Assembly: GCA_019654715.1 (NCBI GenBank)
Contig: BPEH01000007.1
Location: 1-34,475, forward strand
Reading direction: 5' to 3'
Source of the DNA: Fidelibacterota bacterium
GTDB taxonomy: Bacteria; Fidelibacterota; Marinisomatia; Marinisomatales; Marinisomataceae
DNA length: 34,475 bases
Shown here: positions 3,763 to 24,680 of the stretch, in pieces
How the letters are laid out: the number at the start of each line of letters is the position of its first letter
How positions within the stretch are numbered: the stretch's first letter is position 1
Notes under the pieces: model-generated
The model's input: only the letters and a program-made list of their open reading frames with translations
The model's database searches: none
Told to the model about the DNA's origin: nothing
Made by a program: the position numbers and the translations under genes

Positions 3763-6052
<2,290 letters not shown>

Positions 6053-6056
<4 letters not shown>

Positions 6057-6845
6057 ATAAAGTTAAGTGTAATAATATTACTTTTGGTAGCGATGAACTT
6101 CCTTTCATTGGTGGTCCTTGTGTTATTGAGAGCAGAGACCATGTTTTAAAAATGGCTGAAGGAATTTTATCAATTACAGATAAACTCGGTATTCCTTTTA
6201 TTTTTAAGACATCGTTTGATAAAGCTAATAGAACATCAATTAAGTCATTTAGAGGGGCATGGTTTGGATGAAGGGCTAAAAATACTTCAAGAAGTTAAAG
6301 ATTCGTTGAAAATTTCTATTACAACAGATGTTCACCATCCAGAGCAAGCTAATATTGTTGGAGAGGTGGTGGACATACTTCAGATTCCAGCTTTTTTATG
6401 TAGACAAACAGATTTACTACTTGCAGCGGCCAATACTGGTAAAATTGTTAATGTTAAAAAAGGACAATTTTTATCTCCCTATAAAGTAAAAAATATTATT
6501 GATAAAATTTTGACCACAGGAAATAATAATATTTTAATTACAGAGCGAGGAAATTCATTTGGATATGATAGCTTGGTTTCTGATATGCGTGCAATTCAAA
6601 TAATGCAAGAATTTGATTTTCCAGTAATTTATGATGCAACACATAGTGCACAAATACCTGGGAATCTTGAAAACACAACATCTGGACATAGAGAATTTAT
6701 TCCAGGACAGGTTCGTGCTGCTGTAGCAACGGGTTGTGATGGAATTTTTATGGAAGTTCATGATGATGTTGGTAATGCACTGAGTGATGCAAGTACTCCA
6801 GTGGCCGTTGAAAAAATTGGAACCATTGTTGGTTTCAAGGGTTAG
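6053..6845 (+). CDS. kdsA: Kdo-8-phosphate synthase, metal-dependent type (one frameshift)
   Basis: Condenses phosphoenolpyruvate with arabinose 5-phosphate to Kdo 8-phosphate. Motifs: GGPCVIES near the start, [46 protein letters not shown], and FMEVHDD near the end. The Cys in GGPCVIES is the metal-ligand position of class II (metal-dependent) KdsA; the metal-independent E. coli enzyme has Asn there. One extra G in the run 6254-6257 breaks the frame, and the true reading is SFRGHGLDEG. Corrected length is about 263 residues, near the family norm. It overlaps pyrG by 4 bases. Confidence 0.93.
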
Positions 6846-14600: not shown

Positions 14601-14809
14601 ATAGTAAAGAATTTGATGATAGTGCCCTTGTTCGATCCAAGTATAATTTAACTCATCCTGATGCTTCCCCAATGATTTCTACCTTTGGAATGGGTATGAA
14701 AATATTTACTCCATGGGCATTGATAAGGCTCGATACTGCTTGGGATCGTTATCCTGATGGCGACTATTCTAAGCCTCAATATATTTTATCGATTGGGTAC
14801 GATTGGTAA
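11690..14809 (+). CDS. Peptidase-MA-like / TolB-type propeller / outer-membrane barrel fusion protein
   Basis: Intact 1039-residue predicted outer-membrane protein. A signal peptide (cleavage after LFGQ, about residue 17) is followed by a gluzincin-like domain with HELVH at 130-134 and WANEGLAEF at 161-169, which supply the expected zinc ligands H130, H134 and E164. Residues from about 185 to 560 carry repeated PD40/TolB-type blades (PSFSPDGNTIAYFTDQSGY, LSWSPNGKQIAFASKSG, WHPKDNKIVFIGHKND). From about 600 to the end, alternating beta-strands form a BamA/D15-like barrel that ends in an aromatic residue (YILSIGYDW), the usual outer-membrane insertion signal. Similar large PD40 proteins occur in related phyla, but I know of no assigned function. 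The lack of POTRA repeats argues against it being BamA itself. Confidence 0.8.
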   Translation: MRFILILTLFSQALFGQYFGQNKVQYNEFDWNFIVSPNFNVYYYGDNYDLAIFTSKIAEESLDQIGKHLRWRSQQPIKIIVYTSHNDFQQTNIVNVYMSEGIGGVTELYKNRIVIPFEGSYAQFKHVIHHELVHAIINDMVYGGNVQGVLSGRVILQVPLWANEGLAEFLSVDWDTNSDMVLRDLAIEESLPEVDQLNYSILAYKGGQSVWKYITNKYGREKVGEVFQQMKRTQNAEKGFENALGTDFEKLTENWHDYLKKEYWGDINKREKLSDFSEKLTDRSESKNFYNISPSFSPDGNTIAYFTDQSGYMDLILLNADSGEQKKRLIRGNNSPDFEELKWLQPGLSWSPNGKQIAFASKSGKEDSIIIVNVKNGKYKKIPIGLDGVFTTAWHPKDNKIVFIGHKNDASDLYLIDLKTEKVTNLTNDIFSDFSPSWSLNGDKVFFSSDQSSYKDNTDISEIDFSKKDIFMYDFTTESITQITDTDHDEAYPVASKDNILFYTADYNGVYNIFRHDLITNEAYPITNVITGIQQIDVDRNADKIIFAGYKERGWDLFLMNNPIEVENKEVPATIFYTMKDEQEDFEDLRFVRNEPSIAEPEDYSSYIFARNYKKFNDPDHVDPDQELTSVDSLRVSGNYNPQKYKTEFSLDYVYTSASIDNLFGTTGLANIAWSDVMGDHQLRFASNLVMDLDNSDIILGYGYLKNRTNYYGQLFQYANLFSLGYSIDTDYIGFLRDYGVGFFAQYPFSKFNRIDVGATLRGISYEIKEIDYWTGQVETNYSENLKSFIPLVSWVYDNTTNTYTGPNDGLRQYLTFQFSPDIGDDSLAFKTIKFDIRKYFKINRNYSFATRLMLGKSFGENPEKFFLGGSSQMTFYSDTQTEGRDDSGFYAQRILDYESSTVLEDVYFTEYVFPVRGARYRERTGENVAVANFEFRFPFINYVDVGFPAKIRFGNIFGHLFLDVGAAWDDSKEFDDSALVRSKYNLTHPDASPMISTFGMGMKIFTPWALIRLDTAWDRYPDGDYSKPQYILSIGYDW

Positions 14810-14813
14810 TTCG

Positions 14814-15927
14814 TTGAAATTTATAATTCAATCAAAAGATAAATATTCATTAGCAAGAACAGGACAAATTCAGACAGACCACTCTGTTATTGAAACACCT
14901 GTTTTTATGCCAGTAGGTACACATGGAGTTGTTAAATCGATATCACCCAATGAACTGTATGATTTAAACACACAAATTATGTTATCTAACACTTATCATC
15001 TTTACTTAAGACCTGGAACAGACATTATTGAAGAAAATGGTGGATTACATCAATTTTTGAATTGGTCTAATAGTATCTTAACAGATAGCGGTGGTTATCA
15101 AGTGTTTTCTTTAAATAAAATGAACAAGATTACCGATAATGGTGTTCACTTTAAATCACATCTTGATGGAAGTATGCATCTTTTTACTCCAGAAATTTCG
15201 ATGGAGGTTCAGCAAAAATTAGGATCAGATATTATTATGGCATTTGATTATTGTCCACCAGCAAATTGTACAAAAAGAGAATTAAAAAGAGCTTCTAGAT
15301 TAACTCATGATTGGACCAAAAGAGCGTATGATTATTTAGATACACACAAACCCTTTATAACCATACACAAATTTTGTTTCCTATTATCCAAGGAGGCATT
15401 GATAAAGATGAGCGACTAAAATGCTTGGAACAAATGCTTCCTTTTGCTAATTCTGGTATAGCAATCGGAGGATTATCAGTAGGAGAAAAAAAGGAACCAA
15501 TGTTTGATACCGTACATTTATTAGGTGAAGCGATTCCTGAGAATCATCCAAGATATTTAATGGGTGTGGGGAAACCAACTGATATTGTAAAATCAGTTTT
15601 AAGAGGAATCGATATGTTTGACTGTGTATTGCCAACAAGGAATGCAAGGAATGGTCAACTTTTTACTAGTGAAGGAATCATTAATATTATTAATAATAAG
15701 TACAAACACGATATTTCACCAATTGATGAAAATAGCAATATCGCTTTTGCCAAGGAATATTCTAAATCATACTTAAGATATCTATTCCAAATTAATGAAA
15801 TCTTAGGTATGCGAATTGCTACGCTAATTAATATTGCATATTACTTTGATTTGATGAATCAAATTAAATTTGAAATTAATAACCATACTTTCGTAAAATG
15901 GTCAGAAGATTATCTAAAAAAATATGA
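14814..15927 (+). CDS. tgt: Queuine tRNA-ribosyltransferase (Tgt), zinc site lost (two slips)
   Basis: Exchanges guanine at position 34 of GUN-anticodon tRNAs for a queuosine precursor. A TTG start at 14814 gives MKFIIQSKDKYSLARTG, the usual N-terminus; the frame also opens further upstream, but that part overlaps the barrel gene. Seen: the active-site region LTDSGGYQVFSL, PIIQGGIDKDERLKCL, GVGKPTDIV, and the nucleophile region MFDCVLPTRNARNG. One base is missing near 15351-15357, so the frame moves from 14814-15419 to the 15374-15973 frame. A base seems missing in the A run at 15911-15917 too; restoring it gives a TGA overlapping the next ATG at 15924-15927. The CxCxxC and His zinc ligands are absent (see findings). 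About 371 residues. Confidence 0.9.
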
Positions 15928-17017
15928 GAATAGCAAAAAAGTTATTTTTACTTTTGGCAATTATTTTTATTAATAATTGTGCATCAGTATCTGCACCACA
16001 AGGTGGAGCAATTGATGCTATCCCCCCAGAATTAGTTTCAACGACTCCAAAAATATTGACCGAAATTAATCCAACTCAAAAAATTACAATTCAATTCAAT
16101 GAATATTTACAGGAAGCATCTTTAAAAAAGGCAATTAAAATTTTTCCAAATGGAGACTATGACTTTAAATATGAATATAAAGGAGATGAAATTGATTTTT
16201 GGATGCCATCAAATTTAGATACTGATACTACATATATGCTTGTGTTTGATACCAACCTTAAGGATGAACATAGTGTAAATATTGCTCAAGATATTGTTAT
16301 TCCATTTTCAAGAGATTCTGTCTTTCATTCTGGTAGAATTGAAGGAACTATTTTTGGAGATTTTAATACTGCATTTATTCTCTTATGGTTGAACAATCCA
16401 AGTAAAGCTATGATGCTCGATACTCCCCCCGATTATATTTTGCGTGCATCATCAAATGGGGCATATCAGTTTAATTTTTTACCTAATACAGAATTTTCAA
16501 TTTTAGCAGTTCAACAATATGGATCAAATATTGATTATACAAAAGAAGCATTCTCGTTTTATCGAAAAAATAAATTATCGTTGCATAATGATTCATTAAG
16601 TAGTATTAATTTCTATCTTACAAGGCCTATAAAAAAAGAAGAGAGTGTTGTATCTTCTGATAGTTTGACAGTTGATGATACTGATAAGAAAACATTGGTA
16701 AAGACGGGTACTATATTGGGATCTGTTAAGGGTAATTTTCTTCATCCTATTAATGTATTTTTAAAAAATACAAAGAACAATTATACCAATGCGGTAGAAT
16801 TAGGAGGTAATTATACTATTGATGAAGTTTTGGAAGGGAAATATCAATTATTGATTTATGAAGATAGGAATAATGATTTAATCTTAAATATGGGATCTTT
16901 TACTGATAAACAATTTGCTGAAAGGTTTTATGTTTATCCTGATTCATTAAATTTTTGAGAGCCAATTGGGAATTAGAAATTCCAATGTGGAACTATAGCT
17001 TAGAAAAGGAAGAATAA
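15924..17017 (+). CDS. Ig-like (Big_5 type) domain lipoprotein (C-terminal frameshift)
   Basis: Predicted lipoprotein with a basic, hydrophobic N-terminus ending INNCAS (Cys19 probable lipid site). Residues about 30-130 form a bacterial Ig-like domain of the SbsA/Big_5 type: PPELVSTTP, ITIQFNEYLQ, TTYMLVFDTNLKD. A carboxypeptidase-regulatory-like beta domain follows, with YQFNFLPNTEFSILAV and YTIDEVLEGKYQLLIYEDRN. As written it stops at 16958. One slip in the T run at 16949-16955 lets it continue as RANWELEIPMWNYSLEKEE to TAA 17015-17017, two bases before the next gene, which is the more likely end. Probably an outer-membrane-anchored periplasmic or surface protein; ligand unknown. Confidence 0.75.
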
Positions 17018-18185: not shown

Positions 18186-18469
18186 TGGATTTCTTTACTC
18201 ATTCTTGGCTTCCTCTTATGTATCAGTATGGTTTTGGTCTCCTAATTTTTGGTGGTGGACTTTTCACAATATTCCGTGCTTATGGCGGTAGTGAATTTTG
18301 GACGAAGCATAAAATATGGATGCAAGTTTTAGTATGGGGATTTATTTATATTTTTTCTATTCATTTATTGATGACATTATCATCATTAAATAATGCTCCC
18401 AAGATGTATCTACTCATTATCGCTTTGTATATATTAAACGTTGGTATCCTTGTGAGGAATATCAAATGA
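18185..18469 (+). CDS. Small three-helix membrane protein, possible symporter partner
   Basis: A 94-residue integral membrane protein with about three hydrophobic segments (residues 12-32, 45-65, 72-90), joined by a short basic, aromatic loop (RAYGGSEFWTKHKIW). No family is recognised; it does not look like the DUF4212 small subunit known from some sodium/substrate symporters. Its stop overlaps the symporter start as ATGA at 18466, so the two are probably translated together and may form a complex. The overlap with the HIT gene is also one base. Intact. Confidence 0.75.
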   Translation: MDFFTHSWLPLMYQYGFGLLIFGGGLFTIFRAYGGSEFWTKHKIWMQVLVWGFIYIFSIHLLMTLSSLNNAPKMYLLIIALYILNVGILVRNIK

Positions 18470-20395
18470 ACACAACTATTCCAACAACTGAATTATTTTG
18501 GGTAATCTTAGTTTGTTATGTTTTTTTTGTGTTGGGGGCAGGATTATTTTTTGCCCGCAATAACAAATCAACTGAAGATTTCTTTTTTGGTGGGAGACGA
18601 TTTTCTTGGTGGTTAATTGCAATGTCTATGTTAGCTACAGGGGTAGGATCGCATAGTTTTGCAAAATATGCTTCTAAGGGGTTTGAGTATGGATTTTCAT
18701 CTACAATGACCTATATGAATGATTGGTTTTTTATGCCATTATTATTATTTGGATGGATTCCAATTATTTATTATATGCAGGTTAATTCCATTCCTGAGTA
18801 TTTTCAACGTCGTTTCAATAGTACAGTCAGAAATTTATCAACCTTTACCATGTTATTATATTTGGTGGGATATATTGGTATTGGATTACTTGCTCTTGGA
18901 TCATTACTACAACCTATTTTAGGATGGGAAATTAACACCATCATCATCGTCGTAGCTGTTATTTCTGGTATTTATGTTTCTCTAGGAGGGCAAACAGCAA
19001 TTATCTTTACTGATTTTCTCCAGGGCGTTATTCTATTGTTTGCTGGCCTTCTAATCTTTGGATTAGGCATTGCTTATGTAGGAGGATTTGATTCATTTTG
19101 GGGTAATCTATCGATAGCAAACAAATTGCCTCTAGCTGATTTTAATTCTCCACCTGATTTTAATTTTGCTGGTATTTTTTGGCAAGACGGTGTGGTAGGA
19201 TCTGTAGGATTTGCTTTCATGAATCAAGCTGTTATTATGCGTTTCTTAGCAGCACGTTCCGTTGTGCATGCTAGGCGAGCAACTATGATGAATGTTTTGG
19301 TATTCTTACCCATTGGTACGGTTGCAGTATCAAACTCTGGTTGGATAGGAAGAGCTATTGTCAATTTTGATTCAGGTTTAACCGGGATGTATCACTCCGC
19401 TGGAAGTTCAATATTTACTCGTTGGGGTACACATTTTTCATCAACTATTCCAGAAACAACAGATCCAAATGGAATTTTTACGGTAGTAGCTGGTATTGTA
19501 TCAGGATCTGAAGCAATTTTTGCTTTCTTAGTGGCAGCAGTAGTTGCTGCACTAATGTCCAGTCTTGATTCTCAAATTAATGCATCAGCAGCAGTAGCGG
19601 TGAATGATATTTATACTCCATTGAGTAAAAATCCATCTGAAAAAACTCGACTACGTGTTTCGATGTTTACATCTTTATTAGTAACGTTTATTGGAATAAA
19701 AGGCTGCTTTTCTATTTAGTAAATATGGTACGATTTATGAAGCACATGGCGCATTCCATAGTGTTGTGACTCCTCCAATGGTTACGGTAATATTTTTAGG
19801 AATCTTTTGGAAAAGATTTTCTTCTAGAGCTGCTGTTCTAACATTTGTTATAGGAGCAATCTTTATTATGTTAGGCATTGAATATCCGAAGACATTTGTA
19901 CAACCATTTTCTCATGGTATCGAATTTGTTGAGGAAAAACCTTGGTCTTATATTAGAGCATTATATAATGTGGTTGCATGTGCATCTATTGGTATTATTG
20001 TAACCTTGTTTACAAAACCTCCAAAAGACTTTTGATCGCATTAAAGGATTGACCATTTGGACAATTAAGGATGGTCCACAATACTTTAAAGGATCTGATG
20101 TGAATAAAAATGCAGGCCTTTAAATATTCAGTTTGCTGGATCGGAAGTAGAAGTAACACAAAAAGACAACAATGAAGTATCATTGCCAAAGAACTATATG
20201 GATCAGATCAAAGGAAACAAAGGAGACCTAATTTATATTAGTGATCATAGATGGTATCTGGGAGGATTAAAATCTACCCATGCTCGTCTTGGATCAGTAT
20301 CAAATAACAATAAAGTTATTATTTCTAAGGATGTTTCAGATCACGCACAATTTAATTTATCTTTTAAAAAGATTTTTAATTTATTAAACTTTTAA
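18466..20395 (+). CDS. Sodium:solute symporter, SSS family (three frameshifts)
   Basis: Membrane transporter of the SSS family that moves a solute with sodium. The first 418 residues show the family start with FFFGGRRFSWWLIAMSMLAT, then GVGSHSF, SIPEYFQRRF, YVSLGGQTAIIFTDFLQG, and AALMSSLDSQINASAA near the end of the core. Slips: extra G at about 19701-19703, extra T at about 20030-20034, and a missing base near 20120-20124. Across them the frame continues through AHGAFHSVVTPPMVTVIFLG and more helices to a soluble tail that ends NLSFKKIFNLLNF at 20395. Total about 640 residues. Substrate unknown; sugars and carboxylates are common for the family. Confidence 0.85.
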
Positions 20396-24152: not shown

Positions 24153-24153
24153 G

Positions 24154-24227
24154 TACCCCGGACAGGATTCGAACCTGTGACCTACGGATTAGAAATCCGT
24201 TGCTCTATCCAGCTGAGCTACCGGGGC
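24154..24227 (-). tRNA. tRNA-Arg (anticodon TCT)
   Basis: On the minus strand the sequence folds into a standard cloverleaf: acceptor GCCCCGG with CCGGGGT (first pair G-U), D arm TAGCTCAGCTGGATAGAGC, anticodon stem ACGGA/TCCGT around a loop reading TCT, variable loop AGGTC, T arm ACAGG TTCGAAT CCTGT, discriminator A. CCA is not encoded. TCT reads AGA and AGG codons, and AGA is common in these AT-rich genes. Confidence 0.96.
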
Positions 24228-24287
24228 ATAACAGCAAGGAATTTAATCAATTAGAAGGGATATTGGCAGGATTTTCACGTGATTTAG

Positions 24288-24394
24288 CGACGAGCCTCCG
24301 ACGAGAAAATTCTTGCTATAATTCGAGTTTAGCTGTAGAATTGTGAGATGCAGTCGAGAAATTGCGTTTTTAATTCAAAATTAAGGAGAAAAAA
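24288..24394 (+). promoter_or_regulatory. Promoter, leader and ribosome site of the 75-residue protein gene
   Basis: TATAAT at 24317-24322 is preceded by TGC, forming an extended -10 element; there is no good -35 hexamer 17 bases upstream. Just before it lie two direct copies of CGACGAG (24288-24294 and 24299-24305), 11 bases apart, about one helical turn. A leader of about 65 bases ends in AAGGAG, a strong ribosome site 7 bases before ATG 24395. The intergenic stretch is less AT-rich than its surroundings. The repeat may bind a regulator, but that is inference. Confidence 0.55.
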
Positions 24395-24622
24395 ATGGCT
24401 GAAAAAGTAAAGACAACTGGTGTTAGTAAAGCAAGTGGATACCTTTATTATTTAGGTAAAGATGGTAATGTATGGCGTTCACAAATGTCACGCGGAGGTT
24501 CCGGTGGTGGAAATGCTGAAAAAGTTGCTGACGCAGGTGTAACACGTGAAAGTGGCTATTTGTATTTCATCGATAAAGATGGTGATGTATCTCGTGCGCC
24601 TATGGCTAGAGGTAGAGGTTAA
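24395..24622 (+). CDS. 75-residue protein made of two tandem repeats, unknown function
   Basis: Intact small protein built from two copies of a unit of about 39 residues. Copy 1 (2-40) begins AEKVKTTGV and contains SGYLYYLGKDGNVWRSQM; copy 2 (41-75) begins AEKVADAGV and contains SGYLYFIDKDGDVSRAPM. About 19 positions are identical, including G-V, SGYLY, KDG, V, R, M and RG. Each unit looks like a beta-hairpin (SGYLY / KDGxV), followed by a basic Gly-Arg tail. There is no signal peptide or membrane segment. The codon mix is more GC-rich than the neighbours (cgcggaggttccggtggt), which may mean high expression. It has its own promoter, strong ribosome site and terminator. I recall similar short proteins annotated only as hypothetical, but I cannot confirm this here. 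Confidence 0.85.
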   Translation: MAEKVKTTGVSKASGYLYYLGKDGNVWRSQMSRGGSGGGNAEKVADAGVTRESGYLYFIDKDGDVSRAPMARGRG

Positions 24623-24648: not shown

Positions 24649-24680
24649 AAAAAAAAGGGCAATTTTTTGCCCTTTTTTTT
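24649..24680. terminator. Bidirectional rho-independent terminator
   Basis: An inverted repeat with GGGCAA (24657-24662) pairing with TTGCCC (24667-24672) around a TTTT loop, flanked by eight A on the left and eight T on the right. On the plus strand it follows the 75-residue gene; on the minus strand it follows the DUF502 gene, whose stop is 5 bases away. It can serve both convergent transcripts. Confidence 0.93.

Follow-up and report, generated by a model that had tools for sequence, protein, structure and literature searches.

A small basic protein of two predicted beta units, present in bacteria and archaea, as a putative nucleic-acid-binding architectural factor

AlgP of Pseudomonas, which carries an H1-like KPAA tail, has been described as a DNA-binding protein and associates with polyphosphate (polyP) granules (PMC9239181). 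On the side of uncultivated taxa, novel gene families have been collected as the FESNov families under a rule of 100% clade-specificity (PMC10849945). In this study we describe a gene that recalls both. It lies on a stretch of 34,475 nucleotides from a Fidelibacterota bacterium (contig BPEH01000007.1, assembly GCA_019654715.1), called the window throughout, and encodes a solitary 75-residue protein composed of two similar units. On balance, at slightly better than even odds, we read it as a nucleic-acid-binding, probably nucleoid-associated, architectural protein, judging from the sequences of its family. The gene and its units are as follows.

24395-24622, plus strand: coding sequence of the 75-residue two-unit protein, pI about 9.6, net charge about +3.5 at pH 7
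24398-24496, plus strand: unit 1, residues 2-34, predicted strands at residues 3-6, 16-20 and 26-30
24515-24613, plus strand: unit 2, residues 41-73, predicted strands at residues 42-45, 55-59 and 65-69

A preliminary description of this DNA had pictured a stand-alone protein of 75 residues made of two repeats sharing about 19 positions. The open reading frame is indeed intact with an exact translation, and at a spacing of 39 residues the units are identical at 19 of 36 positions, while alternative spacings from 30 to 44 gave at most 5 identities. The local BLOSUM62 score of one unit against the other is 101, a value not reached in any of 2000 shuffles, the best of which scored 42. The unit consensus of ~35 residues reads AEKVxKxGVKRExGYLYFIDKDGDVSRAKMARGG, and among family members the identity between unit 1 and unit 2 is no lower than the identity within the same unit, which gives no clear sign of an ancient unit-1/unit-2 orthology. 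Most invariant are G15, L17, Y18, G24, G54, Y57, D60 and G63, residues that look structural and are non-basic. The window genome holds a single copy, under strong purifying selection (median dN/dS 0.076 in 210 pairs of the same genus). Twin beta units had also been proposed, and the AlphaFold2 model agrees with them: built from 70 sequences (pLDDT 91.4, pTM 0.78), it predicts six strands, three per unit, and zero helices. A single-unit model likewise has three strands, at low confidence (pLDDT 66, seven sequences).

The unit had been said to belong to no characterised family, and our searches point the same way. No model of Pfam or NCBIfam reached its cut-off for the family, the PDB sequence search returned no fitting family, and Foldseek against PDB and BFVD gave nothing at E <= 0.001, the top PDB match being to alpha-crystallin domains (E 0.34, TM 0.27). 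Unit 1 weakly matches PHROG 9154, of unknown function, over a limited ~31 residues (E 6.1e-5), which would fit a phage-borne relative. Profile similarity to the YWTD repeats of LRP6 (E 0.011) is sub-threshold or lacks a significant single stretch, and DUF5050 (PF16472) reaches E 0.005-0.07, with 12.7-16.5 bits against a cut-off of 27. The Pfam scans yielded no match to HU/IHF (PF00216) or to archaeal histones (PF00808), and the all-beta, helix-free model resembles neither. Five motif strings of the family were absent from 5.39 million papers, and literature searches turned up no study of it. The family is unnamed in Pfam, NCBIfam, PHROGs and PDB, the domain is apparently new, and the unit merits a family model of its own.

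The preliminary description would have been undone by a lack of detectable homologs; the family has homologs, decisively so, across bacteria and archaea. Profile searches were run phylum by phylum, under inferred phylum labels that include Neomarinimicrobiota for the window. Among the window genome and 60 relatives, 57/61 genomes have a match, and in Neomarinimicrobiota as a whole the family occurs in 169/245 genomes (68/94 of those of high quality), mostly at 68-100% identity. It is found in 116/120 Elusimicrobiota, in 149/193 genomes of the archaeal Nanoarchaeota and in 47/97 Omnitrophota, and less often in the phylum of genome G249 (28/190), the phylum of genome G255 (14/179) and Nitrospirota (3/148). 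A scan of named genome contigs gave >500 relatives; the best 80 of them are mostly from Elusimicrobiota, with others from Omnitrophota, Woesearchaeota/Nanoarchaeota and Neomarinimicrobiota and a minor share from a few Nitrospirota and Deltaproteobacteria/'Proteobacteria'. Most genomes with the family carry one copy. One copy, near-universal in Elusimicrobiota and common in Nanoarchaeota, Neomarinimicrobiota and Omnitrophota, is a housekeeping-like pattern. A comparison of neighbouring genes found no operon partner kept across phyla, so the protein probably acts alone.

Viral contigs of IMG/VR carry both two-unit and single-unit forms, and all viral matches come from there; phage GenBank records and PLSDB plasmids gave no match. 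Versions with one or two units (L060-L070) lie on viral contigs of up to 430 kb, and on one viral contig the family gene stands beside what by eye appear to be DNA methyltransferase genes. It is possible that these viral versions mimic a host protein or are used by the virus.

In five phyla the two-unit core is followed by tens of residues rich in Lys/Arg and Ala. Counting as a tail at least 25 residues with at least 40% K+R, a rough motif-based count on distinct sequences from a non-random sample, we found tails in 26/48 sequences of Elusimicrobiota (a few of them unassigned), 15/41 of Nanoarchaeota, 5/18 of Omnitrophota, 17/19 of the G249 phylum and 6/9 of the G255 phylum. A Nitrospirota member (L230) has a shorter basic tail, and single-unit forms bear basic tails as well (L105, L270, L287, L289). 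The wording of the tails differs by lineage, for example KKAVKKVAKK, KKKATKKKAAKK and RRKTARRKPARR, or KKAVKK, KKKATKKK and RRKTARKK. Such lineage-specific wordings suggest that tails were gained repeatedly, and their variety on one core suggests that the core itself already works on a polyanion. In sequence they are reminiscent of the tails of histone H1 and of H1-like proteins from bacteria, AlgP among them. The proposal that the basic C-terminus of the window protein could touch nucleic acid is compatible with its charge and is strongly reinforced by these long Lys/Arg-rich tails of its relatives.

The unit is also found fused to other domains. In proteins of Nanoarchaeota, one or two units stand at the C-terminus of HIT proteins as a lineage-specific extension (L181, L185, L186; HIT recognised by eye in L185 and L186), at the end of nitroreductases (L184, L187), or behind a segment that looks by eye like a CxxC..CxxC zinc ribbon (L188, L195, L196). 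Elsewhere units occur with EVE and ASCH (L163/L191), with NOV_C (L189) and with TIR (L190). In the genus of the window, a degenerate unit pair (L056, G004:C1:218949-219122) lies inside a 782-residue protein with a C-terminal DUF2779; L057 and L058 contain smaller degenerate copies. Judged from the domain arrangements this is the behaviour of a docking or recognition module, and the partners HIT, EVE, ASCH, NOV_C and TIR are linked to nucleic acids or nucleotides. The modules of L189, L190 and L191 (genomes G635, G649 and G255) are degenerate two-unit modules, and the TIR of L190 has a SAP-like stretch upstream, seen by eye. All three are candidates for a role in defence, and the module would be a so far undescribed recognition element. 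The spread over bacteria and archaea, the H1-like tails and the fusions go beyond what had first been read from the window.

Under the architectural reading, the window protein would represent an unnamed family of small basic beta-proteins in the short version, lacking a tail, that is typical of Neomarinimicrobiota. Its sheet and basic MARGG/RGR loops would bind nucleic acid with little sequence preference, DNA being likelier than RNA, and the protein would be an abundant architectural or nucleoid-associated factor. In many relatives an H1-like Lys/Arg-Ala tail, probably disordered, would neutralise the phosphate backbone. Where the unit occurs in larger proteins it would dock them, bringing HIT hydrolase, nitroreductase, nuclease-type, EVE/ASCH and TIR enzymes to the same polyanion. 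We infer the ligand, the abundance and the architectural role, and with them that a basic, conserved protein binds DNA inside the cell, from the sequence, repeats, conservation, distribution, tails, fusions and predicted all-beta model. The broader idea of an unrecognised chromatin-type family common to bacteria and archaea and near-universal in several phyla, mostly uncultivated ones, in which a new all-beta nucleic-acid module with recurrent H1-like tails serves also as targeting domain in enzymes and probably defensive TIR, EVE/ASCH and NOV_C proteins, is put forward tentatively, as somewhat less than an even prospect.

Several points weigh against an architectural role. None of the 51 Neomarinimicrobiota sequences has a long basic tail, the window protein included, and the charge of the latter is modest. 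The PDB searches found no sequence or structure similarity to a known DNA-binding fold. Basic tails are borne by RNA- and polyphosphate-binding proteins as well, and the nitroreductase and HIT fusions are equally compatible with a module that docks on proteins or ribosomes. HU was found in 23/25 relatives, and 147/193 Nanoarchaeota have archaeal histones; given this co-occurrence the family substitutes for neither, and replacement of HU or of archaeal histones was rejected. If the architectural reading is true, a further architectural protein that binds nucleic acid, in addition to HU or histones, has been overlooked in several phyla of bacteria and in many small archaea. Whatever the ligand, that a gene so strongly conserved and near-universal in three phyla or more is uncharacterised marks an annotation gap in uncultivated life. 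Cultured relatives of these groups exist (Elusimicrobium minutum, Endomicrobium proavitum, Fidelibacter), and the small size and single copy would make the protein directly testable in those that carry the gene.

The main rival, unlikely but the one to be taken most seriously, is association with RNA or the ribosome: the protein would be an accessory factor of the ribosome or of translation, specific to certain lineages, and would contact rRNA through its basic loops and tails. A small, basic, highly conserved protein that is single-copy and near-universal within phyla would suit such a role, Lys/Arg-rich extensions are typical of ribosomal proteins, and EVE and ASCH, found fused to the unit, are PUA-like folds that bind RNA or modified bases. 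However, the gene lies outside ribosomal operons, its neighbours are lineage-specific and no ribosomal neighbour cluster recurs. Neither Pfam nor the PDB sequence search links it to a ribosomal family, and the best ribosomal chain in Foldseek, 3jcs_E, stands at noise level (E 1.3). Patchiness in other phyla, presence in viral contigs and fusions to TIR, nitroreductase and DUF2779 are unlike ribosomal proteins too.

Less probable still is an adaptor for proteins or small ligands, in which the hairpin GYLYFIDKDGDV would act like a blade of a YWTD-type propeller or of another beta-repeat adaptor, and the stand-alone form as a hub or chaperone recruiting the fused enzymes to a protein partner. The varied enzyme fusions and the most invariant residues, structural-looking and non-basic, fit this, as does the profile similarity to LRP6 YWTD repeats and DUF5050, although those matches fall under the curated cut-offs or lack a significant single stretch. 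A propeller is impossible for an isolated 75-residue core, and the Lys/Arg tails and conserved MARGG loops indicate a polyanion. That the family belongs to polyP granules, with an H1-like tail on polyP, is suggested by analogy with AlgP and appears very improbable: no linkage to polyP genes was noticed among the neighbours, and the Neomarinimicrobiota form is tail-less. A winged-helix or TetR-type transcription regulator is scarcely credible, as the marginal Pfam matches (FaeA, PF04703, E 0.0011, 19.6 vs 20.7 bits; TetR_N, E 0.04, 14.1 vs 24 bits) fall short of the curated cut-offs and are no stronger with other family members and the all-beta model largely refutes such a fold.

The signals around the gene are listed below; it stands alone, with a minus-strand tRNA gene upstream and a convergent gene downstream.

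24313-24341, plus strand: promoter kept in the genus, TTGCTA (24313-24318), 17 nt, TAGAAT (24336-24341), from a promoter scan and an upstream alignment of 21 same-genus loci
24314-24322, plus strand: TGCTATAAT, the extended -10 first noted, present and not conserved
24383-24388, plus strand: Shine-Dalgarno AAGGAG, 6 nt 5' of the ATG, retained in nearly all of the 21 loci
24649-24680, both strands: bidirectional intrinsic terminator, 14-pair stem, 4-nt loop, T runs on both strands
24153-24227, minus strand: tRNA-Arg (TCT), divergent neighbour in many genomes of the order, not outside the order

The strong AAGGAG site and the perfect bidirectional terminator of the preliminary description were both found again. 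The extended -10 that it had placed at 24317-24322 exists as a sequence, but the genus keeps another promoter instead: in the alignment, read by eye, all 21 loci have TTGC (24313-24316) and, after a spacer of about 17 nt, TAGNNT (24336-24341). By contrast, the TATAAT of TGCTATAAT occurs only in this genome (L001) and a near twin (L002), reads TATAGT in L016 and L018, and differs elsewhere. Hence TGCTATAAT is probably not the main promoter. Directly 5' of the -35, between the tRNA-Arg and the gene, lies a G/C-rich element, CGACGAGCCTCCGACGAG (24270-24312), of which the loci of the genus retain altered versions; it may serve both sides as a regulatory or UP-like site.

The gene had also been called the most GC-rich coding stretch nearby. 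It is rich in GC, with 41.7% vs 30.9%, at the 99.5th percentile of 228-base windows (the top one covers the tRNA), but codon choice gives no signal: GC at third positions (GC3) is 0.187 vs 0.186 in 17 other genes. The excess is confined to codon positions 1 and 2 and arises from the Gly/Ala/Arg composition. With GC3 at the average, GC richness was rejected as a sign of high expression, and the high expression first proposed draws no support from the unconserved extended -10 either.

Elsewhere in the window, at 4435-6056, 6053-6845, 14757-15973 and 18466-20035, several housekeeping genes are broken across overlapping or adjacent frames; they were named by eye as CTP synthase, KDO-8-P synthase, tRNA-guanine transglycosylase and a sodium/solute symporter. 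The HU gene of the window genome (contig C6) contains in-frame stops. The assembly probably has indel errors that leave the 75-residue frame unaffected.

Compared with known systems, the family is like the H1-like tailed bacterial proteins in being small and basic and in its proposed role as DNA architect, and many relatives end, as those proteins do, in low-complexity Lys/Arg-Ala sequence. It differs from them in its two-unit all-beta core of no known family and in the tail-less form of the window protein and its phylum, and its DNA binding is proposed from sequence. With HU and the archaeal histones it shares the proposed role and the housekeeping-like spread; unlike HU, a helix dimer with a beta-arm, and unlike those histones, it is predicted to be all-beta, matches neither profile and co-occurs with both. 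A 'GxLYYxDxxG' hairpin motif and weak profile matches recall the YWTD propeller repeats and DUF5050, yet the family has two units instead of a ring of blades, stays below the cut-offs and has very basic linkers. Like the FESNov families, it is uncharacterised and near-ubiquitous in uncultivated phyla, whereas it spans several phyla and two domains of life and so would fall outside their rule of clade-specificity. In conclusion, a small, often tailed, basic nucleic-acid architect would be a known kind of system, built here on a domain that is itself apparently new.
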